The position numbers and the translations under genes are program-made. Below the pieces are notes generated by a model. It did no database searches and was not told where the DNA came from. It worked only from the letters and a program-made list of their open reading frames with translations. 37,953 bases of DNA, taken from a virus. Location of the stretch: positions 1-37,953 of IMG/VR virus record IMGVR_UViG_3300034072_002254; one strand, 5' to 3'. How positions within the stretch are numbered: the first letter of the stretch is position 1; every line of letters begins with the position of its first letter. Positions 1,091 through 25,378 of this stretch are shown one piece after another.

Positions 1091-1135
1091 AAGGTACCCA
1101 AATAAAAGAAAAGGCTCTTTTGACGAGCGTCAAAA
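1091..1135 (-). promoter_or_regulatory. Candidate late promoter for com-methylase (Pmom equivalent)
   Basis: An activator-type palindrome TTTTGAC-N4-GTCAAAA (1118-1135) is followed after 21 nt by the -10-like TACCTT (1096-1091). No -35 is seen, as expected for an activator-dependent promoter. The same palindrome, spacing and TAnnnT hexamer occur upstream of the protease and lysis genes. The palindrome centre would lie near -42.5, close to where Mu Mor binds at its target promoter. It is embedded in the terminator hairpin of the upstream tail operon. Confidence 0.55.
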
Positions 1136-1145
1136 GAGCCTTTTT
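1111..1145. terminator. Bidirectional intrinsic terminator after the tail operon
   Basis: A perfect 12-bp stem GGCTCTTTTGAC / GTCAAAAGAGCC with a 4-nt loop (1113-1140). It is followed by TTTTT on the plus strand and by a T-rich tract (TTTTCTTTTATTT) on the minus strand. It lies directly after the last tail gene (stop at 1161), so it should end the late tail transcript. The inner 18 bp also form the activator palindrome of the com promoter. Confidence 0.8.
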
Positions 1146-1160
1146 GCTTCACGCAAAGAA

Positions 1161-1394
1161 CTAAACTTCAACCACCGAACTAGTCAAGTTAGGTACTTCA
1201 TATCGCAACTCGCCGCCCTCGATCATCGCTTTTGCTCCCGGTTCGACACTTTCACCCTTGACCTTAATAGACACGCCATTGCGCGTAGTTACGGTGCTGG
1301 TGCCATCGCCATTATTACTGGTGACCGTCACCACCGCTCGGCCCTCGCCTTGAAGCAGTTTTTTGAATTTTACCCAAGGGTTGGCTGTACTCAT
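1161..1394 (-). CDS. Small protein at the end of the tail operon, unknown function
   Basis: A 77-residue product from ATG at 1394, overlapping the stop of the upstream tail-tip gene by 4 nt, so probably translationally coupled. The sequence is rich in T, V, G and S with predicted beta strands (VVTVTSNNGDGTSTVTT, then GVSIKVKGESV). There is no signal peptide or membrane segment. Small proteins of this type are common at the end of tail operons in Mu-like siphophages, so a tail-tip accessory or assembly role is plausible. The intrinsic terminator follows at once. Confidence 0.65.
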   Translation of the reverse strand: MSTANPWVKFKKLLQGEGRAVVTVTSNNGDGTSTVTTRNGVSIKVKGESVEPGAKAMIEGGELRYEVPNLTSSVVEV

Positions 1395-3277
1395 GCGCGG
1401 CGCTCCAATGTAACTGATTGATAGATTTCCGCACCCCCGGCTTTCTGGACGCTGATGCTGTTAGCTATGACCAAGCCCACGTAGTCGCTGTCGGGATTAT
1501 CGTGCGTCACACTGACAATCTGCCCTGGGCGCAGAACACCCGGCGCCGCACCTTGTTCCGGTATTAATACGCTGAGCGTTTCGACGACTTTATTCCCAGT
1601 TGCTGCCAGCTCATTGCGGCCCCGGCTGATTGCCGGTGCAGCTGCTGTGATTAAGTCATCCAGAACGTCAGGCATCGGATTCAGGCCGCCGGAACCAGCA
1701 CGCTGAACATCAACTGAGACGCCTTGACTGACACCACTGACGAAGCATGAATCGTAAGCGGGCGCTGGCTCATAACGAGCGGAACGGCTGCGCACCATGC
1801 CGATATAAATGGCCGCATCGGGGGTCACCGTGTCCCATTGCCAAGGTGAGGTTTTATAGCGCGGTTGGATTATCCAGCTATCGTCATCCAGCGATGGAAT
1901 CATCACGCCACCCGCTGCTGTCACTATTTGTGCAACGACTTGTGCGGGTGTCTTCTCTCGATAGCTAAGCGCACCGGCTGGAATGATCCAATCAGGTAAA
2001 TCACCATCGCCGGACGTTGGCCATACCAGAGTAAAACCCGTGTTTTCCAATTCCGCATTGGCGGCCTGCGCTGCCGTTGTTGCACTGCTGTTTGTGTATG
2101 ACCGAACGGGGGCAAACGGCGCGGCCATGTATTGGGTACGGCTCACACCTGAAATAGAGAATTTACTAGTCGGGAATTTTTCATCACTGGTATAGCGCTC
2201 AATACTAAACACCCACTCATGGGTATTAATTATCACGCGGATATCTTTCATTCCGGTCTCATCCGGGCGCACTAAATCCAGCGTGCCTTGGCCATAAACC
2301 GTACCGGTAAATTTCCAACTCAACGAGTCGATATCGACGGAAATATTTACGCCTTGAATATCGAGCGGAGTGCCGGTTGCAACGTCGGTAATTTGTAGTG
2401 TGTTCATAATGAGGTACACAATTTTTCGGGCTGGAGGGTCGATAGGATCGGGGGGAATTGGTGCGCCGGTATCTATGGGGTAAGGCAGATTCCAGTTATT
2501 CCATATGCTTGTACCTGCGCCCCAGGGAATAAGTCTGCTTGTGTCTCGCGGCGCGGCATTGCGGGCAGTGAGGGTTCTAGTGATGTCGTGCGGGACACTG
2601 GGGCGTGAGGGGCTACTGAAGCCTAAAGCCAGCCTGAGGTGATCCCTGTCGCTACCAGTAATTACACCACTTACACTTTCCAACCGAATATTGAGGGCTG
2701 TATCGAAATTGAGCGATGCCAAACGCTCACCACCATCGTCGTAAACCATCCCGGTTAGGTTCACACTGAACCATGACACCCGTTGCGCAGCATCGCGCTC
2801 TTGCGTGTTCATTATCCAGCTGCTTGTGTAATTTCCCCTATCAATACCAATTGCCACTCCCCAAGCGATTAATTGCGAGTTATCACTGATGGATGACTCT
2901 GACCAATTGGATATTTGAGCAGAAAACGCTGCTATACCGCTTGCCCATGCACCTACATTTAACCGATCAACGTGACCCGCATCGCCAAAAAACATGGTGC
3001 TATCAAGCGATGCATGAACAGCTGACTTCCAAAAGAACGCTGCTAGAAAATCAGAAGTGTGTGCCCTATTAATGTCGAGCGCGTGATCACTTTGGGCTTT
3101 GCTCGCTGCAGCCATCGGAGCGACATATTCAACTGACAAGCTCGGTGTCACCCAAGGCAATGGAGGATAAACGACCCCGATAAATGCCAACGAAATTGAG
3201 AGCGGATCTACAGGCACCACATGAGGTGACTGCAGATTTAAGTTGATATTATCCCAAGGCTCAATTACATAATTCAT
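1391..3277 (-). CDS. Tail-tip or baseplate-hub structural protein (probable)
   Basis: A 628-residue product, the last large gene of the tail operon. The C-terminal half (about 300-628) looks like a hub-type protein. It contains VNISVDIDSLSWKFTGTV, then VFSIERYTSDEKFPTSKFSISG, and near the C-terminus LRPGQIVSVTHDNPD. The N-terminal part (1-280) is less ordered and ends in a proline-rich linker (PIPPDPIDPP). There is no signal peptide. ATG at 3277 overlaps the upstream stop by 4 nt. The role is inferred from size, order after the tape measure and the hub-like C-terminal pattern. No peptidase motif was seen. Confidence 0.6.
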   Translation of the reverse strand: MNYVIEPWDNINLNLQSPHVVPVDPLSISLAFIGVVYPPLPWVTPSLSVEYVAPMAAASKAQSDHALDINRAHTSDFLAAFFWKSAVHASLDSTMFFGDAGHVDRLNVGAWASGIAAFSAQISNWSESSISDNSQLIAWGVAIGIDRGNYTSSWIMNTQERDAAQRVSWFSVNLTGMVYDDGGERLASLNFDTALNIRLESVSGVITGSDRDHLRLALGFSSPSRPSVPHDITRTLTARNAAPRDTSRLIPWGAGTSIWNNWNLPYPIDTGAPIPPDPIDPPARKIVYLIMNTLQITDVATGTPLDIQGVNISVDIDSLSWKFTGTVYGQGTLDLVRPDETGMKDIRVIINTHEWVFSIERYTSDEKFPTSKFSISGVSRTQYMAAPFAPVRSYTNSSATTAAQAANAELENTGFTLVWPTSGDGDLPDWIIPAGALSYREKTPAQVVAQIVTAAGGVMIPSLDDDSWIIQPRYKTSPWQWDTVTPDAAIYIGMVRSRSARYEPAPAYDSCFVSGVSQGVSVDVQRAGSGGLNPMPDVLDDLITAAAPAISRGRNELAATGNKVVETLSVLIPEQGAAPGVLRPGQIVSVTHDNPDSDYVGLVIANSISVQKAGGAEIYQSVTLERRA

Positions 3278-4017
3278 GGGCTAATAACATCTGCCTTGAG
3301 TGGCCCAGAGGCGACTGGCCGATAGTAGGGTTTTGGCGCAAATGTCACGCCGCCACTGATGACATTTGATGAGGTTGACCAAACAGGTTCAGTGGATCCG
3401 GTGGTGCCCGCGACAGTAACCTGATAGACATATCCGTTAGGTGTGGTCGGGTGCACAATATTGCCCAGGTTAATGGGCGTAGAGGGTACAAACGCGTTAC
3501 CGTATTCATCCATAGCAAGCGCAATAACCGCTCCCGTCCAGCCGGTATATTGAATTTCAAACGTACCGTCGCCGGCGCTTGTTCCACTAGCTAAAACTTC
3601 TCGGCCACCGGATTTATTGTCGCTAATAACCAACACATCTCGCGACGCTGGAACACCATCGACGGTGACAGTACCGGCGATGCGCGCCTCGCCACTACCA
3701 CCTACTGCAAGGCCTGTGTTATCCACCATATAAACCGTCAGTACGATGTCTGAGGCTAGATTTACATTAATGGCTATCAGTGCCTTGCTGTTATTTTGAG
3801 TTACCCCAACCAACGTGATGACGCTGGACAAAACCTCTATAGGTAATTTGACTGGGGCACCGCGCTTCAAAGCCACTTGTATGCCCGTTGGATTACCAGC
3901 TGAATAGTGCAAGAGCACCATGTTTTGGGGAGGCTCATTGCCAATCACCTCAACATAAAGCTCTGCCCATTGTATTGAGCTACTTTCTATCCACTGGGAG
4001 GGAGGCGATGTCCACAT
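3274..4017 (-). CDS. Tail protein with carboxypeptidase-regulatory-like domain
   Basis: A 247-residue product. The frame is open up to 4158, but ATG at 4017 forms a TGATG junction with the upstream stop and avoids a 142-nt overlap, so I prefer it. Residues around 115-190 (IAGTVTVDGVPASRDVLV through DGTFEIQYTG) resemble a beta-sandwich carboxypeptidase-regulatory-like module, common in phage tail and adhesion proteins. It is followed by VHPTTPNGYVYQVTVAGTTG, a pattern I associate with tail-tip or fibre proteins that decorate virions. Probably a tail-tip accessory protein. Confidence 0.6.
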   Translation of the reverse strand: MWTSPPSQWIESSSIQWAELYVEVIGNEPPQNMVLLHYSAGNPTGIQVALKRGAPVKLPIEVLSSVITLVGVTQNNSKALIAINVNLASDIVLTVYMVDNTGLAVGGSGEARIAGTVTVDGVPASRDVLVISDNKSGGREVLASGTSAGDGTFEIQYTGWTGAVIALAMDEYGNAFVPSTPINLGNIVHPTTPNGYVYQVTVAGTTGSTEPVWSTSSNVISGGVTFAPKPYYRPVASGPLKADVISP

Positions 4018-5084
4018 CACGCCCACCATTCTTGCTGCGTGGTTACAGCAGTGTTTGACGCAGCGATTCGCAGCGCCAAAACTAACCAACTCAGGCCATT
4101 TATATTGAACACCTCTAGGTTGGATGTTGTCGCGTATTCTGCAGAATAATACTGCCAAAAATCAGCTGTGCCTGGCGGAGCGAAACAACCAATGCCGGGG
4201 AATGTCGCAAATGTATACCTTGACTGACTTGTTGGCATGCCGGCTGGCGATGGTCTATCTGCCCCGTTGTAGACCGCAAATAAAGGTGCAACAAGTCGTA
4301 CGGAATCTTTTGTATTCCATAAAGAATTTCCTCCCTCAACAGTAAATCTGGCTACTTCAAACTCCGTATTGGTTGCTGGTATTAAGTTAAGAGGGGTTCG
4401 TAAACCAATAATCTTGTTCATATTGCCACCAGCGCCCGAAGAGGCGGACGAACTTGCCACTGATTGAGCGTCATACATTAAAAAGAAATTACCAAATTGA
4501 CTGGCTGGCCAGCCAAGTGACTTTAAGGCACCGAAAAAAAATTTTGGATGGTAAATTGTTGAAATATTGGTGTTGTCGCCCGGCTCAGCAAGTGGACTGT
4601 TCAGCGCGTAATGAAAACTAATCCAAGCTGATTTACTGTCTGCCACCACTGACCATTGCGCATTTAGCGTATCTACAAGCATCGACGAAAAAGTATTACC
4701 TACCACCTGCGTTGGTGATGCCGACGGTAACTTTGCATTCTGTCCGGCCCAGCCGTTAATGCCCGTGCTCACAGCGGTGTTCCATGCTGTGTCAAACAAT
4801 CTGCCTGTACCCGGCGTAGTAATTGCGTCCCAAATAAAAATACCAACGGACGTGGTGCCCCAGGTCACAAACTCTATTACACCATTGCCATTGGTTATCG
4901 CTAACCGAGGGGCATTTACGGTCGTATCTTCGTAGACAATAGTCCAACCGGCAGCGGTTTTACTGCCATAACCGGTGACTAGGCACGCTTTAATAATGTC
5001 CATGAACCATTTGGCGCCGTTATAGTTCGCGTTCGCTGGTTTTGCAGGAGCACCTGCATCGTTGTATCTGTATAGGGTGGCCAT
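4017..5084 (-). CDS. Tail protein, probably tip or fibre associated
   Basis: A 355-residue product, ATG at 5084 overlapping the preceding stop by 1 nt (TAATG). The N-terminus (MATLYRYNDAGAPAKP, then WFMDIIKACLVTGYGSK, AAGWT) has a pattern seen in tail proteins of Mu-like siphophages. The rest is rich in G, S, N, T and aromatic residues, suggesting beta structure. No enzyme motif, signal peptide or coiled coil is seen. Its place among the tail-tip genes supports a structural role in the distal tail; a receptor-binding role is possible but unproven. Confidence 0.55.
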   Translation of the reverse strand: MATLYRYNDAGAPAKPANANYNGAKWFMDIIKACLVTGYGSKTAAGWTIVYEDTTVNAPRLAITNGNGVIEFVTWGTTSVGIFIWDAITTPGTGRLFDTAWNTAVSTGINGWAGQNAKLPSASPTQVVGNTFSSMLVDTLNAQWSVVADSKSAWISFHYALNSPLAEPGDNTNISTIYHPKFFFGALKSLGWPASQFGNFFLMYDAQSVASSSASSGAGGNMNKIIGLRTPLNLIPATNTEFEVARFTVEGGNSLWNTKDSVRLVAPLFAVYNGADRPSPAGMPTSQSRYTFATFPGIGCFAPPGTADFWQYYSAEYATTSNLEVFNINGLSWLVLALRIAASNTAVTTQQEWWA

Positions 5085-6631
5085 TAGTTGTGATCTCCAC
5101 GCAATTCAATTTTCAAAGAGTCATCGTCCACAGTTGCTTGCCCCGGTAATACTGTGCGAATAAGCCACAAAGGCGCAGCTGCTGCATCGGTATCGAATCG
5201 CACCGTATTTCCAACCTGCCAGCCCGCGCCCCAGCCATTAGAATTAATGCTGAAATAAGGAGTTCCAGTTTGAGGGTTGGTAGGGCTGAAATTTGCGGCT
5301 GTACTACCCGATGCAACCAAACCACGCTTTTCAGAAAATAAGTTGAAGGCTGTTGTCGAGGTGAAAACAATTTTCCACCTATCGGGAACACTGCCGCGAT
5401 TATCAATGGCGATGGGATAAACGATCAGATTGTATTGGGCACCAGTAACTGTGCCAGTGCCGTTATAGCCAGGATCAGTTGTATAGCTCACCCAGTTTTT
5501 AACACGCCCACGCAAGTTCCCTAAATAAACCGCTGAAGCAACCCACGTCTCATCCGCCGGAAATGCGTGATACAGAGGTTGTGCAAGTTGGAGGGTGCCA
5601 TCGATCCGCGCCTCTGTGCAGAGCGCCATATCGTCAATGCGATGCACATAAAACAAATCACCTACGAGCGCATTGCTCTCAGCATCTTGTGCGACAAATG
5701 GTGTGGCCAGCGTTGCGATACCAGTCTCTTTGTTTAGAACGTATTGCGCTGGATCCAATCGGGTACCGACTGAATCTTCAAACCAGGCATCGTGTAAACG
5801 ATCACGCCCGGCATCGACAACTAACCCTGCCGCTGGAGCATTTACCAAATCTTTTTTGGTGTGCGTAATAACCAGAATGTCGGCATCACGCAGAATGGGA
5901 ACGCGGCCATCAGCAGGTAGTCTCACCGGGTCTAAACCGAGAATATCTGGATCCAGAGGCACTTGTTTGTAAGAGACCGCGTTATAAAAAACAGTGGAGC
6001 CAAGAACGGGCTTGGGAAACTGAATATCAGCAATACCCTTTTGCAAATCAACCGAGCCGATAACACCGTCACCTGACAACATGCCCTGGTTGTCAGCCTG
6101 CGCGTTGAATTGCTCCTCTGTCTCAATGTCAGTAGCGCGAACGTTAAATCCATTCGGACGCAGCGGGGCTGCATCGGTTCGGAAGCTGGTTGTTTTGATG
6201 ACACTCCAGTCATCACCTGTGACGCAAGCTATCGCGGTAATGGATGCTGTTATCGGACGATCTACGTAATTGTCGATTACACACTCGCTAGACTCGTAGT
6301 TGATAGAGCCGCTCAGGATTCCGGCACCCGTTGTTGTGTTGTAATTGCGCAATAAACCGCCTTGGCCATCGTCAAACCACAGTGAACCCGAGATATTTAA
6401 TACGACACTACCGGGCACTACTGGGCCAGTCTCTGTTAAATAGAATCGCCAGGGTGCCTGAATCAGATTTCTAACATCGGTTTGCGCTTGTGGGGTATCA
6501 GCAGCCAGTTGGTAATTAACAGTAACATCACGCGCACGTATTTCTTCATACACAGACGCGCTGGTAAACTTTGTCGCGTTAGTGCGTTGTAGCCCCACTT
6601 GGCTCATTGTGATGACAGCACCAGTTGCCAT
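5084..6631 (-). CDS. Tail structural protein with repeat modules
   Basis: A 515-residue product, ATG at 6631, 1 nt after the upstream stop. It carries modules like those of the upstream 652-residue protein: a segment beginning VVPGSVVLNISGS, with DDGQGG and a GSINYESSECVID turn, and a later LDPAQYVLNKETGIATL segment. This suggests the two tail proteins share ancestry. No enzyme motif is evident. Probably a distal tail or tip component. Confidence 0.55.
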   Translation of the reverse strand: MATGAVITMSQVGLQRTNATKFTSASVYEEIRARDVTVNYQLAADTPQAQTDVRNLIQAPWRFYLTETGPVVPGSVVLNISGSLWFDDGQGGLLRNYNTTTGAGILSGSINYESSECVIDNYVDRPITASITAIACVTGDDWSVIKTTSFRTDAAPLRPNGFNVRATDIETEEQFNAQADNQGMLSGDGVIGSVDLQKGIADIQFPKPVLGSTVFYNAVSYKQVPLDPDILGLDPVRLPADGRVPILRDADILVITHTKKDLVNAPAAGLVVDAGRDRLHDAWFEDSVGTRLDPAQYVLNKETGIATLATPFVAQDAESNALVGDLFYVHRIDDMALCTEARIDGTLQLAQPLYHAFPADETWVASAVYLGNLRGRVKNWVSYTTDPGYNGTGTVTGAQYNLIVYPIAIDNRGSVPDRWKIVFTSTTAFNLFSEKRGLVASGSTAANFSPTNPQTGTPYFSINSNGWGAGWQVGNTVRFDTDAAAAPLWLIRTVLPGQATVDDDSLKIELRGDHN

Positions 6632-6632
6632 A

Positions 6633-8591
6633 TTAATTACTCCTGATTTTCAAAAAAGCGGTTCCCACTATGGTGATTACACCGGTGGCATAGTTAACAA
6701 ATCCGATGGCTTCACTGGTAAGGCGTTGTGCAATGATGTTGCCGTTTCCGTTGTCGCGAACGGAATAAAGTTCATCAACAAAACTGGCCGATAGCTCAAC
6801 ACCATTTGAGTCACGGATTACCCTGCGAACAGATTTAATTAAGTCAAAGTTAATCGATCCTGGCTGAATGTTTGGCGCAGTGGTGAGGGTTATATCTGCG
6901 CGGTTAGTGTTCGCTGGAATCGCCACCACACTCGTCAAATTAGTCGTATTTTTATGTGTGTAATTTATCGTCCATCCATCGACGGGAGTGCTTGTGGCCG
7001 TTAAGCTGATTCGGCCTGCTGCGTAGTCAATAGTGCCTGTCGCATCACCCGAGATAATGCCTTCACCACCAACATCGCTAGCTGTTTTGGCGCCAGCGCC
7101 AGCTTCCCAGCTAATAGATACAGAACCAGGCACAACTTTTCCGTTAGATAGAGATAGGTTTACGGGTGAAGTGTCGCTATAGGTTTGGCCTAGTGCATTG
7201 CTGTACATGGCGCCCTCAGTCCAACGGAAAAAAATTACACTGCTTGCGTCCGGCTGCGCCTCCAAAGTAAGTACTACAGAACCTGTGATGTAATTAACCT
7301 GACCAGATCCATCACCAATTAATAAGCCTGTGCCATCGTCATTTAGCTCATACCATTTGCCTAAATACTGATAGGCGGCATTGAAGGTAGTGGGTGCTGG
7401 TGGCGGATCCAGCGTAAGCACGTAGTTAAAGTTTCTATTGGTATCGTCGATTTCAATCCGCCCCGTATTGGGCAGTTGCTGACGCAGTGCACCTGGTTTG
7501 TATGTCAGTGTCACGGTAGCGTTTACCTGAGAACCTGCCCAGGCAATCAGCCCACTTCGGTAGTTAATTACAGTCCCTTCTAATGTGCCCGTTGAACCTG
7601 CTGCAGTCACAAAGGCCGCACCTTTATCCGTGTACGCCGTGCCACCAACTGTCAATGACATTGAACCTGGAACGATTGCCGTAGGGAGCTGACTTGTTGC
7701 CCCTGAAGCAACATTGACAGAGATATTGATTGCGTCATTTGACGATGGAATCACTTGGCTCAGGAAGCCACCGGGACGCTGATCAATTACAGGGGTTTCA
7801 CTGGATGCGGTGGGAATAATTGGTGCAAATGTTTCAGCAACCCGAATGCTGGTAGCTCCTGCTAATGATGCATTTTTTAATGTACTAGTACCGTAATACT
7901 TCGCGGAGTTTGCTGGCTGGGTGCTGTACAAACGACTGGTATTGCTCGGAGCTGGCGATGGATCGTTTGCCGGGTAATCACGCTGCAATTCAGATGAAAG
8001 CTGCAAAACATACTGGGTCGCGTCAAACGTGCGTATATCCGCCCCGCTAACCGCATAGGTAAAACGCTCGTTGGTAGTAATAACGTTCACCACTTTTACA
8101 AATTGTTGCGTAGAAACATTATCTCCAGTGCGCAACATATAGGTCTCGCCAATTTCGGGTGCTCTGATGCTGTTTAATTTTGGGGCGTAAACAATTAATG
8201 AGCGCTGACCACTGAGCTGAGTGCCACGTAGATGCAATCCCGTAACCGGCCCCGGCACCACAAACGACTCTATACGAGACCGAGCAGCTGCGCGCTGGTC
8301 ATAAAAATCTTCCGTGGTGAACAACAATGCGCTCACATTGGGATCCTGCGGCTGCGCACTTAAAATTGCGTGGGCATCCAAGTACAAGTCAGCCGTTGCG
8401 GTATCTACTTTCAAAAATGCTTTACGCAGGCTCACATCACCGTAGGTGCGATCCACACGCGAAATATCTTCAAATAAATTATTAATGTCTCCATCAATAA
8501 CCGGTAAACCAGTCATTTGGCCGCCGCCATCGGATTCTTCCGTCAGCCGCTCTGACTGCATCAATTTAATATCGTTACTGGTAATTGCCAC
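6633..8591 (-). CDS. Large tail protein with internal beta-module repeats
   Basis: A 652-residue product starting at GTG 8591, with the SD GAGGAA just upstream. From about residue 290 onward it contains at least three related modules. Each begins near a PGS(M/V/I)-type strand, passes a D/G-rich turn, and ends in a GxxxY.sG(x)I/V pattern, for example GTVINYRSGLIAW, GQVNYITGSVVLTL and GTIDYAAGRISLTA, followed by an aromatic strand such as WTINYTHK. The N-terminal third lacks the repeat. Position right after the tape measure and the 130-residue gene points to a distal tail component. Confidence 0.6.
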   Translation of the reverse strand: MAITSNDIKLMQSERLTEESDGGGQMTGLPVIDGDINNLFEDISRVDRTYGDVSLRKAFLKVDTATADLYLDAHAILSAQPQDPNVSALLFTTEDFYDQRAAARSRIESFVVPGPVTGLHLRGTQLSGQRSLIVYAPKLNSIRAPEIGETYMLRTGDNVSTQQFVKVVNVITTNERFTYAVSGADIRTFDATQYVLQLSSELQRDYPANDPSPAPSNTSRLYSTQPANSAKYYGTSTLKNASLAGATSIRVAETFAPIIPTASSETPVIDQRPGGFLSQVIPSSNDAINISVNVASGATSQLPTAIVPGSMSLTVGGTAYTDKGAAFVTAAGSTGTLEGTVINYRSGLIAWAGSQVNATVTLTYKPGALRQQLPNTGRIEIDDTNRNFNYVLTLDPPPAPTTFNAAYQYLGKWYELNDDGTGLLIGDGSGQVNYITGSVVLTLEAQPDASSVIFFRWTEGAMYSNALGQTYSDTSPVNLSLSNGKVVPGSVSISWEAGAGAKTASDVGGEGIISGDATGTIDYAAGRISLTATSTPVDGWTINYTHKNTTNLTSVVAIPANTNRADITLTTAPNIQPGSINFDLIKSVRRVIRDSNGVELSASFVDELYSVRDNGNGNIIAQRLTSEAIGFVNYATGVITIVGTAFLKIRSN

Positions 8592-8593
8592 GG

Positions 8594-12471: not shown

Positions 12472-12495
12472 AAAAAAGGCACCCTGCGGTGCCTT
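12472..12495 (-). terminator. Intrinsic terminator between tail tube and tape measure genes
   Basis: In leftward RNA an 8-bp stem AAGGCACC/GGTGCCTT with loop GCAG runs straight into TTTTTT. It lies in the 95-nt gap (12439-12533) between the tail tube and tape measure genes. It probably acts as a partial terminator lowering expression of the distal tail genes relative to the abundant tube protein. Confidence 0.75.
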
Positions 12496-12533
12496 CTGTG
12501 ATCCGCCGCAGCAGATTGGAGTTGATCTGCGCA

Positions 12534-16233: not shown

Positions 16234-16746
16234 CTATGCGCGAACTACCTGAGCAGCTTGGGCATAACTGATGTTGTGTTTTTCCGCGTGTGCCTGGATC
16301 TTGTTGTGCAGCTCCAGTTGTTTTGCATCCACACTGAATCCGTTAGGTGCTGCAAAACTGGAAGTCTCTTGGGAACCGTCTTCCTCACGCGCTGAGTGCT
16401 CCGCAAAATCCACTCGCGGTGGCAGCTTGCTCAAAAAATCACGCAGTACATCGGCAGTGGGTTGGGTAACAGTTTTGCCATCACCATCGGCAAAACTCAC
16501 CTCTTGGTCAGCAGGTAATGCAGCCAACACCGCAACGATTCCGGTTTTCTCTACCGGCAACAGCTTTCCACTTTTAATCAGCCCTTCAGCGAACGAATCA
16601 ATTTCATCCTCACGAGCTTTCTTTTCTTTTTCAGCCAGCGCTCTTTCACGGGCATCGAGGTCTTTTTGCTTATCCGCAAAACTGGCTTGGTCTTGTTCCA
16701 GTTTTTGTTTTTGTTTATCGAGTTCGGCTTGGTCTGGTGTGCCCAT
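16234..16746 (-). CDS. Nested scaffold protein, Mu gpZ-like internal start
   Basis: An in-frame internal ATG at 16746 has SD AGGAG exactly 6 nt upstream (16757-16753). It would give a 170-residue protein starting MGTPDQAELDKQKQK, consisting of the coiled-coil region and the C-terminus without the protease domain. In Mu, gene Z is an in-frame internal product of I and acts as the head scaffold. The SD is seen in the sequence; expression is inferred. Confidence 0.7.
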   Translation of the reverse strand: MGTPDQAELDKQKQKLEQDQASFADKQKDLDARERALAEKEKKAREDEIDSFAEGLIKSGKLLPVEKTGIVAVLAALPADQEVSFADGDGKTVTQPTADVLRDFLSKLPPRVDFAEHSAREEDGSQETSSFAAPNGFSVDAKQLELHNKIQAHAEKHNISYAQAAQVVRA

Positions 16747-17217
16747 GGTTGGCTCCTGTGAGTCGGCAAAATTAATGGTGATGAGATCGGCATCGTCTGC
16801 ATCAGCAAACGACGGTTGTTTTAAACCGGGAACTGCAGGGGGAACGGCACCCAAAAAACCAATGTGGCGTAAGTAGTAAACGCCAGGTACTGGGTTACGT
16901 GGATTGGTTGGTGACCAGAAGGATGCGCTGATGCTGTCGTAACGCTCGTTATTCACCGCATCTGCAAATGCAGGGTCAACATTCGCAGGTTCAGCGAGCA
17001 CTACGTTGTTGCTGCTGAGCGAAAGTGAAACAGCATGGCCATAAGCTGGATCGTCAATACGCGGGTGACCAATAACGAGTGGCGCTTTGTGTTTTGCAAT
17101 ATCGTAAGCGGCAACTGTCGCGGCAACATCCGATGCACTGAAGGTAAGCTTCGCACCTTCCACTGAAACGAAAGTACCTGGGCGGAAAATTTCCAGAAGT
17201 TTTTTGGCTGCTGCCAT
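16234..17217 (-). CDS. Head maturation protease, Mu gpI-like, with scaffold domain
   Basis: A 327-residue product, ATG at 17217. The N-terminal half (1-150) has the Mu I protease pattern: APLVIGHPRIDDPAYGHAVSL, ERYDSISASFW, YYLRHIGFLGAVPPAVPGL. The second half is a long charged coiled coil (LDKQKQKLEQDQASFADKQK onwards), the scaffold part. In Mu this gene encodes protease and, by internal initiation, scaffold Z; the same appears here (16746 start). The SD GAGAG sits in an inverted repeat that may hide it. Confidence 0.85.
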   Translation of the reverse strand: MAAAKKLLEIFRPGTFVSVEGAKLTFSASDVAATVAAYDIAKHKAPLVIGHPRIDDPAYGHAVSLSLSSNNVVLAEPANVDPAFADAVNNERYDSISASFWSPTNPRNPVPGVYYLRHIGFLGAVPPAVPGLKQPSFADADDADLITINFADSQEPTMGTPDQAELDKQKQKLEQDQASFADKQKDLDARERALAEKEKKAREDEIDSFAEGLIKSGKLLPVEKTGIVAVLAALPADQEVSFADGDGKTVTQPTADVLRDFLSKLPPRVDFAEHSAREEDGSQETSSFAAPNGFSVDAKQLELHNKIQAHAEKHNISYAQAAQVVRA

Positions 17218-17223
17218 GAGGTT

Positions 17224-17255
17224 TGCTCTCAACCGTTTTTAATGTATTGAGAGCA
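17224..17255 (-). promoter_or_regulatory. Inverted repeat covering the protease SD
   Basis: TGCTCTCAA and TTGAGAGCA form a perfect 9-bp stem with a 14-nt spacer immediately upstream of the protease start at 17217. In the leftward mRNA the 3' arm contains GAGAG, the likely SD. Folding would lower initiation, so translation may be controlled. Function is inferred. Confidence 0.5.
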
Positions 17256-17302
17256 GATTACGCAGGGGTTTCGGTTTTGTATTTTGACGCCGGTCAAAAC
17301 CT
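17255..17302 (-). promoter_or_regulatory. Candidate late promoter for head genes (PI equivalent)
   Basis: The palindrome TTTTGAC-N4-GTCAAAA (17282-17299; left flank extends to GTA) is followed after 21 nt on the minus strand by the -10-like TAATCT (17260-17255). The same spacing is seen at the com and lysis promoters. Transcription would start near 17248, just before the inverted repeat ahead of the protease gene. In Mu the C-dependent PI promoter lies at the same place, upstream of I. Confidence 0.6.
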
Positions 17303-17966: not shown

Positions 17967-18039
17967 CGTTGAGTCCTACACTAGTGTTAACTGCTCAGGG
18001 GCCGGCCACCGGTAATTTGACCACCAACCTGAGTGGACG

Positions 18040-18064
18040 ACGCGGGTACCGGCCCGCGTTTTTT
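18040..18064 (+). terminator. Rightward hairpin with T-run, antisense to the head operon
   Basis: On the plus strand ACGCGGG (18040-18046) and CCCGCGT (18053-18059) form a 7-bp stem followed by TTTTTT (18059-18064). It lies just past the stop of the F-like gene, in the 96-nt gap before the G-like gene. It would terminate rightward (antisense) transcription; on the minus strand there is no T-run. Confidence 0.45.
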
Positions 18065-19304
18065 ATTCCTCTCGCCGGTACAGGCGCACCCCAATTCGCA
18101 AATCGTCTAAATCGCCAAACTCATTTACAAACGCTGTTACACCTGACCAGCCATCGTCACCCATTTCAAATACGGCGAGAGTGGGCACATCTGAGCCTGG
18201 TAATTGCAAGCGGGTCACATAGCGGCGGCGCACAACGGTTTTCTTCTGTGCGAAATGCCATTCCAACCTTACCCAAATTTCGTCTGGCTCTTTCAGTGCA
18301 GAGGCGAGTAGTTTCATGTACTGCCCACGTCCATTTTTATCGGCTTTGATTTCGCCCGTGCGGCTGGTGGTAAACATAGCCTTGCCAATCACCAAACGCT
18401 CGCCTATCACATCCGCGAACACCGCTGGCTCATCCAGGGTTGCACCGAACTCGGTTAAAAATTCCGTGGCGTATTGTTCGGGTGTTAAGTCGGTTGGCAG
18501 CAGTGCATCGGTATTTAATTTGCGCGGGGCTGGCAATTCGCTGCGGGGACGCGTGTTAGGCAAACCGTTACTGCCTGCGCTACCTTTCACCGGCGGGAAC
18601 GGCACCTCGGGCGGTATAGCGCTTTCCAACCGTGATTTGCCTGGCACATGTTCAAAGCCCGGATCAATACCCTTGGGTACACGCACCCTGGTTGGGCCAT
18701 TCGGGCTACGTTGACCAATCTCTCGCGTTTCCCATTCCACTTCTGGGGCTTCACCAATTTGTAAACCCATGCGTTTGATGTCGCGTTCATTAAGCGCTTG
18801 CACACGACAGTCACAACCCCAGCCATTGGTTGGATAGTGGGTTTGCCACCAAGGGTCGTCATACCGCAGCACTAAATTATTCCAACTTAAATGGTCATGC
18901 CGTGGGTTTTCACTGCCACTGTGAACGTAGCGCCAGAATGGGCGGCGCGCACTCACTTCCTGCATTTGCTGATAGCGGCCAGCCATGTAGCTGCTGTTTA
19001 AATTGGTTTCATAAATTACACGGCTGCGCCAATTGCGCCCACCGTTGTAACTCCAACCGTGCTTTGCAACGATGCTGTCAAAATCCTTGCGGAAGTCCTC
19101 GAGCGTTCCGCCTTCGGCAATCACTTTTTCCACTGCAGAGCGAAAGTCAGAAACAATGGCGTTGCGGTTTGCACCGGCCACCACAAATGCCCAATCATTC
19201 TGCTTACTGTAAATGTCAGTCCAGCTTTGCGTAGGCAAATTCAGCTTGCGACGAAAGAATTCAATTTGTTCCGCAAAGGGTAAGCTGACCGCCTCAATTG
19301 CCAC
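18063..19304 (-). CDS. Mu F-like head morphogenesis protein with C-terminal PBECR2-type domain
   Basis: A 413-residue product from GTG at 19304, overlapping the portal stop by 11 nt. Residues 1-210 are the Mu F (gp30) minor head domain: VIYETNLNSSYMAGRYQQM, HSGSENPRHDHLSW and the cysteine pair in GWGCDCRV. After a proline-rich linker (230-265), residues about 270-413 (LTPEQYATEFLTEFGA, FADVIGERLVIGKAMF, DEIWVRLEWHFAQKKTVVRRRYV) resemble the PBECR2 member of the barnase/EndoU/colicin E5/RelE-like nuclease group often fused to F proteins. Nuclease activity is not shown by the sequence alone. Confidence 0.85.
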   Translation of the reverse strand: MAIEAVSLPFAEQIEFFRRKLNLPTQSWTDIYSKQNDWAFVVAGANRNAIVSDFRSAVEKVIAEGGTLEDFRKDFDSIVAKHGWSYNGGRNWRSRVIYETNLNSSYMAGRYQQMQEVSARRPFWRYVHSGSENPRHDHLSWNNLVLRYDDPWWQTHYPTNGWGCDCRVQALNERDIKRMGLQIGEAPEVEWETREIGQRSPNGPTRVRVPKGIDPGFEHVPGKSRLESAIPPEVPFPPVKGSAGSNGLPNTRPRSELPAPRKLNTDALLPTDLTPEQYATEFLTEFGATLDEPAVFADVIGERLVIGKAMFTTSRTGEIKADKNGRGQYMKLLASALKEPDEIWVRLEWHFAQKKTVVRRRYVTRLQLPGSDVPTLAVFEMGDDGWSGVTAFVNEFGDLDDLRIGVRLYRREE

Positions 19305-21066
19305 GGCTCACCTCATCCATAATGTCGCTGCGGCCATTTAATTCGGCAAGGCGCAGCACATCGGCCATCACCGCTGAATACTCAGCAATACTCATGTCAG
19401 GCAGCAGCTCGGCAAGGCCATCGCGAATTGCTTCCAAACTTTCGGCATTCATTACCAGATCGCGGATGCGGTTAATCCATACGTCAGTAACAGATTGAAG
19501 CTTGTCGTCTGCCTGATCTGTAAGTGTTGTTGCGCGCTCGGTATCTGGATCGGCAAATTCGGCTTTGCCTGGCAATGGTTCTGGTACCGGCTTCGGCTCC
19601 GTAACAACATCACCCAACAACCGTTCGATTTGCTCTTTTGAAATTGCAGGGAAGCCAACTTCAATGAGTGCGTAAGCGCGTGCGCGATCCAGTTGGCCTT
19701 GCTGCACCAGGGCAATCACATCAGACAGTGATTTGATTTGTGCCCCATTAAGCGCGGTTTGCTGCGGCGATTCCAGCATGCTGGTATCTAACGGCTGTTC
19801 TGTCGTTTCAGGTGCATCGGTTGCGTTTGGAGGTGGTTGTTTACCATCGCCCCCCGGTGGCGTAGTGTTGTTTTGCTTTTCCCAACCTTCACCATATTGC
19901 TCGTGAATGTATTCGAGCGTTGGTTTAAAACCCATTTGATAAATTTTGGTATCGCGATCTGCACGCGCTGCCAAATCTTCGTCGGGATCTGTCACGCGGT
20001 AAACATGTGGCGGTTTCGCTCCGGGGAAGTTGTACTCGGTCAACCAGGTAACAACCGTTTCGTTAAAGCTCTCGCATACCAAATCTGCATCAGCACGAAT
20101 CAAGTCTGCACGCACATCGCCTTGCAGATCGTCGTCGCCCAAACGCCCAGGAGTGCCCTGAGTGCTTGCGGTTTGCCCTAGTATAATTTTTGCGATGGCG
20201 GCATCCATGTATTCGCACAGCTTCACATAGTCCGCCGTGCCGCTGCGTGCGGCCTCAAGAAATTCTATTTCCATTCCTTGGGGAATGGTGATGCCTGTGT
20301 CTGTTGCGATGGCTTCCAGCGCATCCAGCAGCTTGCGGCGCTCTTCATTCGTGGCGTTGGTTGGGTGTTTGCCCACTGTAGTCGGCTGGCCAAAGCGCTC
20401 CAAAAAGATCATCCAGTATTGAATGCCCGCGCGTTTGAAAAACACAGGCCAGTAAAGCCAATGCGCTAAACCTAAACCGTAGGGTTCGTCGTCATGATCT
20501 GCACCAGTGCAGAAGCTCCAGAATTTGCGATCAGGCAGCAGCTCGCCTTCCGGGTTGGAAAAGGTTTTCAAACGCAAGTTACCAAAACCATCAAAGCCGA
20601 AACGCACGCGGTCACGCACTTTAAGTTTATCGACGATGATATTTGCACCATCGCGCCCCCACATAATTTCTGCAGCGGCATAGCCGTAGTAAACACCGAA
20701 CAGCATTTTGTCAGTGGCATTATCAAACGCCATCGCCTTGATTTGCTCACTCATAAAGTCAGCGGCTTTTTTGTCTGCACGGCTTGTACCGCCTGCATCC
20801 ACTTGCAGCTCTTTTGCGATCACTGCCAAACGGCGCTGAGCGAAGCATGATGCAACTTGATCATCGCGCAGCACTTCCTTGTAGATTTTGTAATCACCAC
20901 CACCGCGCAATTGCAGTACTGAGTCAGTGGGTTGCTGCAACATAAATGGGTCTACGTAGCCGCGCGTAATATCGCGTCCATCGCGTGTGGTCGCTACTTC
21001 GCGCATCTCCGGGCGCGATGAACTCTTGGGTACCAAAATGCCTTCTTTTGTTTGTTCGTAGTTCAC
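19294..21066 (-). CDS. Portal protein, DUF935 / Mu gp29 family
   Basis: A 590-residue product. It starts at GTG 21066, one base into the terminase stop (TAGTG), with SD GGAGG 9 nt upstream. It has the DUF935 pattern: DSVLQLRGGGDYKIYKEVLRDD, FGVYYGYAAAEIMW, FKRAGIQYWMIFLERFGQPT, and ILGQTASTQGTPGRLGDDD. The C-terminus carries an acidic, helical extension. It forms the dodecameric vertex ring through which DNA enters. Confident. Confidence 0.93.
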   Translation of the reverse strand: MNYEQTKEGILVPKSSSRPEMREVATTRDGRDITRGYVDPFMLQQPTDSVLQLRGGGDYKIYKEVLRDDQVASCFAQRRLAVIAKELQVDAGGTSRADKKAADFMSEQIKAMAFDNATDKMLFGVYYGYAAAEIMWGRDGANIIVDKLKVRDRVRFGFDGFGNLRLKTFSNPEGELLPDRKFWSFCTGADHDDEPYGLGLAHWLYWPVFFKRAGIQYWMIFLERFGQPTTVGKHPTNATNEERRKLLDALEAIATDTGITIPQGMEIEFLEAARSGTADYVKLCEYMDAAIAKIILGQTASTQGTPGRLGDDDLQGDVRADLIRADADLVCESFNETVVTWLTEYNFPGAKPPHVYRVTDPDEDLAARADRDTKIYQMGFKPTLEYIHEQYGEGWEKQNNTTPPGGDGKQPPPNATDAPETTEQPLDTSMLESPQQTALNGAQIKSLSDVIALVQQGQLDRARAYALIEVGFPAISKEQIERLLGDVVTEPKPVPEPLPGKAEFADPDTERATTLTDQADDKLQSVTDVWINRIRDLVMNAESLEAIRDGLAELLPDMSIAEYSAVMADVLRLAELNGRSDIMDEVSRGN

Positions 21067-22502
21067 TAGCGGAACCCTCCAGTATTGGTGCGGCGAGTGC
21101 TGCCGGTGCTGCGGTACCCATCGGTATCGCCACTTGCGCGTTGTTTGTTGGTGGATTGATAGTCAATTACAACACCGGGTTGTGATGCCGCATGTACCGC
21201 CAAACCCAACGCCCAAAAGTGGTCGGCGTGGCCATCGGGTGTGCGTTCAGCAGTAAAGCGAATGTTGCCCGCTGCAGTGGTTTGTTTTGTCACTTGGCGC
21301 AAGTCAGCGCGGATTGCAGGCTCATGCGGAATACGCAGTGTGCGATCTTCCATGCGGCCTTTAATTGGATAGGCCAGCGCTTCCTTCACGCGCGGCGTAA
21401 AGGTCACGCATTCGATTTTGTGCTCACCGAATTTATCAACGGCATCATCACCCCAGCCAATACCCAAACCGGTGTAGTCAATACAAACCCGCTCACAGCG
21501 TTCAAACCAGGGCCACAGTATTTTTTCCTGATCGGATTTGCGCATGTTTTTGAGCCGCACAATGTGGCGGGTGTAAAGCACATCACCCAGCAGCTCCACA
21601 ATCCAGAGCACGGTCAAATCGCTCTTGCGGCCAATGTCTACGCCTGCAAACAAGCGGCTGCCTTCGATTTGCTCCCACTCAACACCAGCTGCATACTCGG
21701 CAGAGGCAATTAAATCGTATTCCAGAAAGGCGACATCGTCGTCAGCGGGATTGCACATGTACTCTTGCTGAAAGCTTTCTTCATCGGCACAACCACTGCG
21801 TACAAAGTCAAAATAGGCCGCCTCATCCATTGCTTGGCGTTCGTCATCCGCTGGAAGCATTTGCTGCAGCTTGTATAGAAAGCCTTGATCAAGAGCGTCT
21901 TGCAATGTGACGCGGTGCAGGCTGATGTTTTTCGGGTTGCCGTTTTCACGCGCTTCACGAATCAACTGATTAAAAAAATTATTGCTGCCACGGTGCGTGC
22001 TGATCACTTCCATATTGCCGCCCCAGGTGATGCCAGGGTACGCAATGCTCCATAGCTTGCGTGGATCCGGGTGCAAGGCGAATTCATCCAACACGCGGCC
22101 ACCGCGTTTACCGGCCTGCGCGTCTGGGTTACTACTCATTGAGTGAATGCGTTTGCTGCTGGTGAATTCCAACACATAGGCGCTGATGCGGTTCTTTTCA
22201 TCCAACATGACTTCGCCCAAATCTTTGGCGGCCATGTTCATAATTTTTGCCCAGTGCTTACAGTCCTCGATAAATAAACGCGCTTGCAAGTCATCGCGGC
22301 TGCTTACCCATTGGTCGTGTCGCGCACCTTGTAGTGATGTGCGTTCGTTACAAGCGTAAGCCGTTGACCAACTGAGGCCGATCTGACGGGATTTTTCCAT
22401 CAGCTTTAAGCGCGAGTCATCCTTAATCCAGCGGGACTGGAATGGTAAAAAGATTGCGCCCGGATTCGCAGGGATATTTTTGGCGTTACCTTTGAGTGTC
22501 AT
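21066..22502 (-). CDS. Terminase large subunit, Mu gp28-like
   Basis: A 478-residue product, ATG at 22502 overlapping the small-subunit stop (ATGA). ATPase motifs: Walker A-like KSRQIGLSWS (38-47) and Walker B VLDEF. The C-terminal nuclease domain begins LFAGVDIGRKSDLTVLW with the first catalytic aspartate, and ends near DGHADHFWALGLA with later acidic residues. It packages phage DNA by headful from Mu-type integrated copies. Highly confident. Confidence 0.95.
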   Translation of the reverse strand: MTLKGNAKNIPANPGAIFLPFQSRWIKDDSRLKLMEKSRQIGLSWSTAYACNERTSLQGARHDQWVSSRDDLQARLFIEDCKHWAKIMNMAAKDLGEVMLDEKNRISAYVLEFTSSKRIHSMSSNPDAQAGKRGGRVLDEFALHPDPRKLWSIAYPGITWGGNMEVISTHRGSNNFFNQLIREARENGNPKNISLHRVTLQDALDQGFLYKLQQMLPADDERQAMDEAAYFDFVRSGCADEESFQQEYMCNPADDDVAFLEYDLIASAEYAAGVEWEQIEGSRLFAGVDIGRKSDLTVLWIVELLGDVLYTRHIVRLKNMRKSDQEKILWPWFERCERVCIDYTGLGIGWGDDAVDKFGEHKIECVTFTPRVKEALAYPIKGRMEDRTLRIPHEPAIRADLRQVTKQTTAAGNIRFTAERTPDGHADHFWALGLAVHAASQPGVVIDYQSTNKQRASGDTDGYRSTGSTRRTNTGGFR

Positions 22503-23017
22503 CAGTTAATACCCAGTGCATCGCGAATGGCTTGTTTGGTTTCTTCGGTTACACCGCCTTTGGTAGGCATGGCCTCTAACTTCGCTTTTTGCTCTTCCAG
22601 CAATTTCTTCCGCGCATTTTGTTCAATGGCAAATTTTTTCTGAGCGATGGTTGCCTTTGCCAGCTCCGCAATTGCTTTAGCAGCTTTAGGTAAATCCACT
22701 TTGCCTTCTTCGGCCAATAGCAGACTGAATAGGCGCTCTTGCACCAAACGCATCAGTGCATCGCTCACAGCACCTTCATCATCCGGCGTGGCTTCTACAA
22801 TCGCTTTGGCTTGTTCGCTCGCCATTTTCAGTGCAGCAAGGCGCTGCTCAAAATCCTGACCGTAGCGATGAAGTGAGCTTTTACTAATATCAAAACCGCG
22901 ATCCTTCAGCTCAGCTGCCAGCGTCTGGTACTCACTGAAGTTGCTTTCAATTAACGCACGATCCAACCAGGCTTTTACTTCTGGCGGCATTAGTTTGACT
23001 TTGCTGCGGGTACCCAT
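22502..23017 (-). CDS. Terminase small-subunit-like protein, DUF3486 / Mu gp27
   Basis: A 171-residue product. The open frame continues to 23080, but ATG at 23017 gives MGTRSKVKLMPPEVKAWLDR, the DUF3486 N-terminus. An HTH-like segment (YQTLAAELKDRGFDISKSSL) is followed by a helical, charged C-terminal half with a coiled-coil look. Adjacent to terminase large subunit as in Mu. Confidence 0.88.
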   Translation of the reverse strand: MGTRSKVKLMPPEVKAWLDRALIESNFSEYQTLAAELKDRGFDISKSSLHRYGQDFEQRLAALKMASEQAKAIVEATPDDEGAVSDALMRLVQERLFSLLLAEEGKVDLPKAAKAIAELAKATIAQKKFAIEQNARKKLLEEQKAKLEAMPTKGGVTEETKQAIRDALGIN

Positions 23018-23021
23018 GGCG

Positions 23022-23330
23022 TCACCAGTATTTAGCTGGGCGAGCAATGCCAGGTTCAACGTCAACGGTGTACTCAGCAATGTCTACACCGTAGCGGGTT
23101 AAATCAGCAGACCATTGGCCGCTGGGTGATTTTTCCAAATCAACCAAGTCGCGGTCTTTTAAGTACTCCAACTCACGGCGCACCTCCAGTGGGGTCGCAT
23201 CGGTATACACCGCTTGAATGGTGGTGAGCACAATATTTTCGTGTGCACCCACCGGGCGAGCATTTTGCAGTGTGAGCAAAATCATCCAGCGGATGGTTTC
23301 GCGGCGAATTTTTGCGGGATCAACGTTCAT
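23022..23330 (-). CDS. Mu gp26-like small helix-turn-helix protein
   Basis: A 102-residue product, ATG at 23330, overlapping the neighbouring genes on both sides. The sequence (ETIRWMILLTLQNARPVGAH, ATPLEVRRELEYLKDRDLVDL, then a W-containing wing) fits a winged helix similar to Mu gp26. Order gp25, gp26, gp27, gp28 is as in Mu. Function in Mu is not established. Confidence 0.8.
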   Translation of the reverse strand: MNVDPAKIRRETIRWMILLTLQNARPVGAHENIVLTTIQAVYTDATPLEVRRELEYLKDRDLVDLEKSPSGQWSADLTRYGVDIAEYTVDVEPGIARPAKYW

Positions 23331-23637
23331 TTTTGGCGACCTCTTTCAACTGCCAGTTTTCAATTTTTAACGCCAGCGAATCGATTTTGGTTTCAATCAC
23401 TGTTTGGTTGCGTATGTAGTCTTCGCGTCTTACATACTGGTTTGGCAGTTCTGCCTGAAACCGCAAAAAATCTTTTTCCAGTCGCACCCATTCCTGCGCG
23501 TCCTTTTCAATGGCATTCAGCTTTCCCTCTATGCGGCGCTCGAACTGTTTAAACACCAAGGAAAGCAGCCCCCAAATTGCGCCAATCAGCGCAAGCATTA
23601 ACGTAATGCCTATTCCAATTAATTCGCCCGGACTCAT
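23320..23637 (-). CDS. DUF2730 / Mu gp25-like membrane-anchored coiled-coil protein
   Basis: A 105-residue product with an N-terminal transmembrane segment (about residues 5-29, LIGIGITLMLALIGAIWGLL) and a charged coiled-coil region that continues to the C-terminus. It matches the DUF2730 family of Mu-like phages. ATG at 23637, right after the Rz1-like stop at 23641, in the same late operon. Role unknown. Confidence 0.8.
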   Translation of the reverse strand: MSPGELIGIGITLMLALIGAIWGLLSLVFKQFERRIEGKLNAIEKDAQEWVRLEKDFLRFQAELPNQYVRREDYIRNQTVIETKIDSLALKIENWQLKEVAKNER

Positions 23638-23640
23638 GTG

Positions 23641-23892
23641 TTACTCACTTTGTTTTTTGATTAGTTCCCAATACTTACCCGCACACTCACCGTATTGGTC
23701 GTACATTTTTTTCAGCGCTGCCATCGTAGCATCGCAGCCGTTATCGAGCGGGCGGGCCACCGGTGCGCAAGGCACCAGCAAAACCGCTGCTTGCGGTTTG
23801 GTCGGCGCGGTCTGCCGCTTGGTGGAGCTGCTGCATGATGTTGTCATCAAACACGCAGTTAAAACGCAGGTGAGCAGTAGCAGCGAGCGCAT
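23641..23892 (-). CDS. Rz1-like outer-membrane spanin lipoprotein
   Basis: It overlaps the Rz-like gene out of frame, the hallmark of Rz/Rz1 pairs. I take ATG at 23892 (MRSLLLLTCVLTACLMTTSC); the frame is open up to 23937 with other ATGs. The signal peptide has two possible lipobox cysteines, LTAC and MTTSC. The mature part is proline-containing and short (about 65 residues) as usual. It would link with Rz across the periplasm to fuse the membranes at lysis. Confidence 0.75.
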   Translation of the reverse strand: MRSLLLLTCVLTACLMTTSCSSSTKRQTAPTKPQAAVLLVPCAPVARPLDNGCDATMAALKKMYDQYGECAGKYWELIKKQSE

Positions 23893-24139
23893 TGGTAAAT
23901 ACCTGTGTTGATTGGGCATCCGCTTTTTTGCGGTCATTAATGGTTTGGGATAGTTGCAGATTTAACTTGCCCGCCTGCTTGGTTTGTTCTGCCAAACCAT
24001 CGAGTGATTTATTGAGTGATGCAATTTCATCGCCCAGGTTTTTCTGCGTTGTATTCGCAACGCCCATCACGTAACCCAGATATCCGGTAACGCCGTATGT
24101 GATTGCAGCGATTGCTATTGCTAGTAGGTGCTTTCTCAT
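23741..24139 (-). CDS. Rz-like inner-membrane spanin
   Basis: A 132-residue product with an N-terminal transmembrane anchor (residues 5-27) followed by a coiled-coil periplasmic region (EIASLNKSLDGLAEQTKQAG, LNLQLSQTINDRKKA). ATG 24139 overlaps the transglycosylase stop (ATGA). Together with the overlapping lipoprotein frame it forms a two-component spanin. Confidence 0.8.
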   Translation of the reverse strand: MRKHLLAIAIAAITYGVTGYLGYVMGVANTTQKNLGDEIASLNKSLDGLAEQTKQAGKLNLQLSQTINDRKKADAQSTQVFTNALAATAHLRFNCVFDDNIMQQLHQAADRADQTASSGFAGALRTGGPPAR

Positions 24140-24843
24140 CAGAATTTAAACCCCATGCAAACCCCATTACCCCAACCGGCGCTTACATAAAGCGGTTCCC
24201 AGCGGGAAAGAATCGCCCTTGGGTAATGGCGATTCTCTTTAAAATTCGCGGCGGATCTGCCCGCGTTGAATTTTTCAATTGAGTAAAACCAAGCCAGCTC
24301 ATCAGCCCCAGAAGCTAATGCCAGCCTGCGGTCACGGTTTACCCAACCTTGGCCGCCGTTATAGGCAGAGAGGATCATTGCCCAGTGGTCGCACTGGGAA
24401 CGGGCTTGGTTTCGCTTGTGCAGGTACAGGTCGTATTGCACCAGGGCGCGCATGGCCCAGCCGGGGTTGTAGGGTTGCGGGTTTGCTAAATGTTTTGGGT
24501 AAGCCGCTGCGATCCACTCAGTAGTGGTCGGCATAAATTGCGCGAGACCTTCAGCACCTACTGGTGAGCGTGCATCAATTCGCCAGCGGCTTTCCTGATG
24601 CACTTGCGCAGCAAATGTTGCGATGGGTGCATCAAGCCCCCACACCGCATATGCGCTGCGCACAAGTACGGCGCGATGTTGTTTGGCAGCGCTGGGGATT
24701 GCTTCAGCCTTGACAGGTGTGCAGCTAACTATCATCAACACAACTACTGTGCCGACAATTAAGCCCTCAAAAATGGCGCACAGTAGGCTGTAAAAAAACA
24801 TTTCTCTGCGCGAGTAATTCCGCAAATCGAATTCTTTACGCAT
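24139..24843 (-). CDS. Lytic transglycosylase endolysin, SLT family
   Basis: A 234-residue product that cleaves peptidoglycan. SLT motifs: catalytic Glu84 in HQESRW (82-87), GLAQFMPTT (99-107), AYNGG (160-164). An N-terminal hydrophobic segment (about 17-40) precedes residue Cys41 in IVSC; it could be a signal-anchor-release segment or a lipobox, and I cannot decide. ATG at 24843, just after the holin-like stop. Confidence 0.88.
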   Translation of the reverse strand: MRKEFDLRNYSRREMFFYSLLCAIFEGLIVGTVVVLMIVSCTPVKAEAIPSAAKQHRAVLVRSAYAVWGLDAPIATFAAQVHQESRWRIDARSPVGAEGLAQFMPTTTEWIAAAYPKHLANPQPYNPGWAMRALVQYDLYLHKRNQARSQCDHWAMILSAYNGGQGWVNRDRRLALASGADELAWFYSIEKFNAGRSAANFKENRHYPRAILSRWEPLYVSAGWGNGVCMGFKF

Positions 24844-24845
24844 GA

Positions 24846-25277
24846 TTAAAGCCCCAGCGTTACGCCAAGAATGGTGCAGCCAACAATAATGGCGCGGCGG
24901 AGCATTGCAGCAGCAAACACGCGGTTGTATTGCTCAACCACTTCAAAATCCGCTTCGTTTTCATTTTCCTCGCTACCCTTCTGCCAAAACTTTTTCAGGT
25001 AGCCGTCTGGCCGTGCGTAGGGGAACAGCGCGCGGTCAATCCAATAACCGGCAATGGCAGCGGAAATAACCAGCGCGAATTTGTAGTAAGCCACCTCGGC
25101 TTGCTGGGGCGAGGTGAAATACAAGCCAGCGAACAACAAGGCGCTGAATAAAATCCAACTGAACAGCCGTGGCCAAGCCGCTTCAGCAATGGATTTGCCC
25201 GGAAAGAATTGCAGCGCCACCCATGCCAGCAACGCAAACGCTGCCACCACCATGATTAATAACCAGACTTTTTCCAT
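24846..25277 (-). CDS. Putative holin (small membrane protein)
   Basis: A 143-residue product with about four hydrophobic segments: residues 5-25, 38-54, 66-83 and a C-terminal segment near 125-143. A charged cytoplasmic-type loop (GYLKKFWQKGSEENENEADF) lies between the third and fourth. ATG 25277 has SD GAGGA 7 nt upstream. First gene of the lysis cassette, directly upstream of the transglycosylase, so a holin role is likely by position. It would be driven by the palindrome-headed promoter at 25331-25378. Confidence 0.7.
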   Translation of the reverse strand: MEKVWLLIMVVAAFALLAWVALQFFPGKSIAEAAWPRLFSWILFSALLFAGLYFTSPQQAEVAYYKFALVISAAIAGYWIDRALFPYARPDGYLKKFWQKGSEENENEADFEVVEQYNRVFAAAMLRRAIIVGCTILGVTLGL

Positions 25278-25330
25278 CGCTTTTTCCTCAGTTCGCTGTG
25301 ATTAATGAGTTGATTCACTACAGGAACTTC

Positions 25331-25378
25331 AGAGTAAGGAGCGGCGGCGTTTTTGTATTTTGACAAGCGTCAAAATAC
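25331..25378 (-). promoter_or_regulatory. Candidate late promoter for the lysis genes (Plys equivalent)
   Basis: A perfect 24-bp palindrome GTATTTTGAC-AAGC-GTCAAAATAC (25355-25378) is followed on the minus strand, 21 nt past its 18-bp core, by the -10-like TACTCT (25336-25331). Both the core and the 21-nt distance match the sites before the protease and com genes, and the first bases after the core (TACAAAA) match the protease site. The holin-like start is 54 nt downstream of the -10. Mu Plys lies in the equivalent place. Confidence 0.65.

Follow-up and report, generated by a model that had tools for sequence, protein, structure and literature searches.

Three palindromes in the genome of a B3-like transposable phage are very probably the operators of a single Mor-type activator that switches on separate late units. 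The stretch of DNA analyzed (the window) is a linear viral record of 37,953 bases. The assignment to Mor is based on homology, promoter geometry, and the covariation of operator and activator among related phages. Early genes of the phage lie on the plus strand, from approximately 28.7 kb up to the mor gene at 37597-37953. Late genes lie on the minus strand and run from the lysis genes (25277) through the head and tail genes to a methylase at position 1. The same divergent arrangement of early and late genes is found in B3.

An earlier note on this DNA had placed the palindromes upstream of the com-methylase, protease/head, and lysis genes, and our gene identifications agree. The lysis operon begins with a holin (24846-25277, minus strand; PF13272, phrog_1528) followed by an SLT transglycosylase endolysin (24139-24843, minus strand). 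The head maturation protease (16234-17232, minus strand; phrog_976) is the equivalent of Mu gene I. The com-mom position is occupied by a Com zinc-ribbon protein (743-949, minus strand; PF10122) and a D12-class adenine DNA methyltransferase (1-894, minus strand; PF02086) with a likely start near 792 and 83% identity to the B3 enzyme.

Three further features of the record were noted. A RexA homologue (26060-27007, minus strand; PF15969, E 1.4e-60) adjoins a small and probably membrane-spanning ORF (25693-26157, minus strand), a pairing that resembles the lambda RexAB exclusion system but occurs in a transposable phage. A long tail-region gene appears to be split in two, with adjacent minus-strand ORFs at 5084-6631 and 6633-8591 corresponding to the C-terminal and N-terminal parts of a 1,200-residue family (phrog_6128). 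Lastly, a repressor-like protein (28221-28667, minus strand) and its neighbour (27864-28205, minus strand) share a GSVGQ...GG motif.

The palindrome TTTTGAC-N4-GTCAAAA has exactly three matches in the window, as the earlier note had reported. Site 3, the predicted operator of the lysis promoter, lies at 25358-25375 (TTTTGACAAGCGTCAAAA) and has 10-bp perfect arms. Site 2, the predicted operator of the protease/head promoter, lies at 17282-17299 (TTTTGACGCCGGTCAAAA, plus strand), and site 1, the predicted operator upstream of the com-methylase genes, at 1118-1135 (TTTTGACGAGCGTCAAAA, plus strand). With up to three mismatches allowed, each further match carries exactly three; such matches number 9, whereas shuffled sequences gave a mean of 2.96, and none of 100 shuffles reached 9. 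On the minus strand, precisely 21 nt beyond each palindrome, is the TAnnnT hexamer that had been proposed: TACTCT (25331-25336) for the lysis promoter, where relatives show the same spacing, TAATCT (17255-17260) for the protease promoter, and TACCTT (1091-1096) for the com-methylase promoter. We take these as predicted -10 elements. A promoter scan of the window gave no -35 hexamer at any of the three sites, so a standard sigma-70 promoter carrying a -35 element was discarded as a description of them. A dispersed repeat was also discarded, since there are just three copies and all have promoter spacing.

The centre of each dyad lies 30 nt before the -10 hexamer, which would put it at about -42.5 if the hexamer sits at -12 to -7. 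This agrees with the position suggested in the earlier note, although its likeness to the Mu Pm promoter is inexact: the dyad bound by Mu Mor at Pm has its centre at -43.5 and replaces the -35 element (PMC4390567, PMC4287176). A promoter matrix, built in each case leaving out the genome under test, gave 30.1 for site 3, 30.2 for site 2, and 16.3 for site 1, which ranks third in the window. Nothing on the opposite strand scored above 13.2, a value that came from site 3 read in reverse. Site 3 also folds stably (z -4.6), and its minus-strand tail has no T run.

The same promoter design is found in related phages. A Mor-only search of viral contigs returned a single relative (G001), and the terminase was therefore chosen as the anchor. 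The terminase-anchored relatives and whole records together made up a set of 22 oriented genomes, B3 and the window among them. Some of the relatives' sites had been picked out by eye, upstream of genes already known, prior to building the matrix; the unbiased test is a search for paired matching dyads, each with nAnnnT at +21. Such pairs occurred on the late strand of 9 of the 22 genomes, on the other strand of none, and at 0.03 per genome in shuffled sequence. As the earlier note had anticipated, the spacing is kept: the hexamer's A2 and T6 sit precisely at +21 in 31 of the 35 non-redundant sites, from genomes that are not fully independent of one another, and no other tested offset accounts for more than 4. 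Common to the relatives are an 18-bp dyad, a 21-nt spacer, nAnnnT, and the lack of a -35 element. Many have an imperfect dyad, TTTTGnCCCCGTTCAAA(A/T)(T/G)AC, which is why a criterion of identical 6-bp halves missed most relatives. In most genomes the two highest matrix scores are the lysis and protease sites, whose positions recur throughout the relatives. The matrix is weaker on outliers; the top five for B3 held only its protease site, and G009 scored weakly.

B3 and five other genomes (G007, G009, G010, G017, and G022) have a third site, located upstream of the tape-measure gene, as checked through the downstream ORFs. The window has no operator at this position. It has a terminator there (12474-12497, minus strand), at a place where several relatives combine a terminator with a predicted Mor operator. 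Overall, a terminator lies just upstream of, or merges with, 9 of 37 operators, mostly at the tape-measure site, compared with 2 of 2,100 random positions, a contrast owed in part to intergenic location, since coding sequence was among the random positions. The terminator's T run continues into the TTTT of the operator in G010 and G017. Four sites, at the lysis, protease, tape-measure, and com-methylase genes, are present in two genomes found through their methylase (G036 and G037). The proposal that the window sites are equivalents of Mu Plys, PI, and Pmom thus gains support from the recurring lysis and protease positions and from the com-methylase site in these two relatives. A scan of genome contigs for the operator and spacer gave, among the matches listed, scattered single matches that we read as background and no new set of phages.

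The predicted activator is Mor, encoded by the last gene of the early operon (37597-37953, plus strand; PF08765). The only Mor-family match in the record spans 37624-37938 within this ORF (E 9.3e-29). The protein matches the structure of Mu Mor (PDB 1rr7, E 1.4e-6) and can be aligned to the solved structures of Mu Mor and C. In a comparison of 12 genomes, the distance between operators rises with the distance between Mor proteins (Mantel r 0.50, p 0.014). The protease also shows a correlation with operator distance (r 0.45, p 0.004), which means that the signal is not peculiar to Mor, and the largest partial correlation with operator distance is that of Mor (0.32). TerL (-0.17) and TnpB (0.01) show no correlation. 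A natural swap is seen in G018, whose protease is 84% identical to that of B3 and whose Mor is 19% identical; its operators are like the ones in genomes whose Mor is similar. Within this modest sample (n = 12), operator specificity appears to follow the activator. The earlier note had named the single Mor/C protein at 37597 as the natural regulator, a choice favoured by its being the sole such protein found and by the parallel divergence of operators and Mor. One genome, G012, has late operators and gave no Mor match; at the left end of its record (L189) a transposase-like sequence, recognized by eye, occupies the expected mor position after gemA, so G012 may be a damaged prophage.

Other DNA-binding proteins were weighed for this role. 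A winged-helix protein (30201-30515) and a CII-like protein (29427-29951) are both early, and the former is kept in nearly all operator-bearing genomes. Binding of the palindromes by either is nonetheless highly improbable: winged-helix divergence does not follow operator divergence (r -0.18), the window and B3 winged-helix proteins share 60% of their sequence yet the operators differ, the CII-like protein was undetected in several operator-bearing genomes, and it is Mor-family proteins that are known as dyad-binding activators for promoters of this geometry. A perfect dyad could bind any dimeric protein, and the window encodes a repressor-like helix-turn-helix protein (28221-28667, minus strand), so the palindromes might instead be repressor sites or sites for packaging or replication. 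We consider this extremely improbable, as they keep out of the early control region and lie on the late strand at a fixed spacing to a -10 element with no -35.

Site 1 differs from the other two in being embedded in a larger structure. Its operator makes up the loop and the upper part of the stem in a 16-bp perfect hairpin with a T-rich tail (1109-1144), an extension that the earlier note had missed and that has no counterpart at site 2. The hairpin lies 16 nt past the last tail gene, and its stem contains 6 G-C pairs. As minus-strand RNA it folds at -24 kcal/mol (z -5.2) and is followed by CTTTTATTTG; the plus strand folds at -25.3 kcal/mol (z -5.1). A hairpin of this stability and G-C content, trailed by a T run and placed beyond an operon's last gene, has the properties of an intrinsic terminator, here at the end of the tail operon. 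Site 1 could on these grounds be merely a terminator, operator-like by chance or descent and not a promoter, leaving sites 2 and 3 as the only Mor operators. Its matrix score is just 16.3, the weakest of the three, and the conserved (T/G)AC that follows the dyad is missing. A search of other viral contigs did not find the hairpin core, and neither the site nor com-methylase is present in G001, the closest relative. Right-end cargo varies among close relatives, with com-methylase at 1-950 of the window and an unrelated 222-residue ORF in G001 (L146, 1-770).

We nevertheless regard the terminator-only reading of site 1 as unlikely. All 14 operator letters are exact and the -10 hexamer lies at exactly +21. 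Only ten perfect hairpins with 7-bp arms and a 4-nt loop occur in the window, which makes a chance TTTTGAC arm at site 1 improbable. In addition, several tape-measure operators adjoin or overlap a terminator, and the four-site sets of G036 and G037 each include a Mor-type site upstream of the com-methylase genes, which supports site 1 as a genuine promoter. With the operator inside the terminator stem, the tail unit would stop and the com-methylase unit would start at a single element.

The symmetry of site 3 raises the possibility of a divergent promoter. A predicted mirror -10 hexamer, GAAGAT, lies 22 nt past the operator on the plus strand (25398-25403). Facing away from the lysis genes are a 37-codon ORF with no family match (25431-25544, plus strand) and a conserved 49-codon ORF (25547-25696, plus strand; phrog_21976) that is a probable divergent late gene. 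Homologues of the latter (45-49 codons) lie beside the lysis operator in G001, G007, G009, G010, and G013 and were not seen there in the other genomes compared. The mirror nAnnnT at +21/22 is also found in G001, G007, G010, and G013, and overall it is present in 5 of 6 genomes with the adjacent small gene compared with 1 of 9 without. In G009 the mirror hexamer falls at +23 in the register used; in B3 it falls at +22, but the small gene is lacking. From this pattern, the site 3 operator may also fire a small plus-strand unit. Divergent from the lysis operator of G009 (L155, 13705-14494) we also observed, by eye, a 263-residue ORF resembling a sigma-70-type factor.

The predicted sites can be compared with those of Mu and B3. 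As at Mu Pm, the predicted window promoters would have a dyad some 42-43 bp upstream of the start, a -10 element, no -35, and a Mor-family dimer as activator. The Pm site is 16 bp long and consists of a pair of 5-bp repeats set 6 bp apart (PMC4390567, PMC4287176), whereas the window dyads have 7-bp arms (TTTTCG-N6 in B3) and sit one base nearer the -10. Pm serves only middle transcription, with C needed for the late promoters, whereas the window sites would drive late units directly. Mu has four C-dependent promoters, lys, I, P, and mom (PMC4461284), and the targets predicted here are similar: lysis, protease/head, and com-mom, plus the tail in relatives, where the site precedes the tape-measure gene. 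The four sites of G036 and G037 parallel Mu Plys, PI, PP, and Pmom. Unlike in Mu, no second Mor/C-family gene was found in the window record, and Mor presumably replaces C; nearly all of the B3-like records searched likewise yielded a Mor and no second family member. Pseudomonas phage B3 (Beetrevirus) has TTTTCG-N6-CGAAAA three times, at the holin, protease, and tape-measure genes, with the spacing seen in the window. It differs from the window in its TTTTCG half-site and in its Mor (18% identical), and its methylase lies before the tape-measure gene without a site of its own. The dyad placement without a -35, the location at late operons, and a Mor/C protein encoded by the same phage are all found here, and assignment of the predicted sites to a variant of the known Mor/C-activated promoter class is largely supported.

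We propose that Mor would be produced at the end of early transcription and that a Mor dimer on the 18-bp dyad, centred approximately 42 bp upstream of the start, would stand in for the -35 element. Mor would thereby aid host RNA polymerase, presumably the sigma-70 form, at the weak -10 (nAnnnT) located 21 nt beyond the dyad. This would activate the lysis (site 3), protease/head (site 2), and com-methylase (site 1) units. At site 1, the upstream unit would end and the new unit begin at one element, the operator being set within the terminator of the tail transcript, and at site 3 the symmetric operator would probably drive the small divergent plus-strand unit as well. More broadly, one Mor and up to four operators could account for the whole late programme of B3-like phages, with a bidirectional lysis operator and with com-methylase and tape-measure operators that merge with or abut terminators. 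We hold this joint reading in roughly even balance.

The literature searched, which excluded the B3 genome description, contained nothing relevant on B3 late promoters or Mor operators, and it yielded no earlier proposal of terminator-operator elements or of a divergent Mor promoter. The design described here supplies a consensus for late-gene operators and promoters in B3-like transposable phages, such that their late promoters would be predictable from sequence alone. It also provides natural Mor-operator pairs for the study of Mor/C specificity, namely the TTTTGAC of the window, the TTTTCG of B3, and the swap in G018, and it suggests that terminator and operator can be combined in one compact element and that a divergent promoter may exist.
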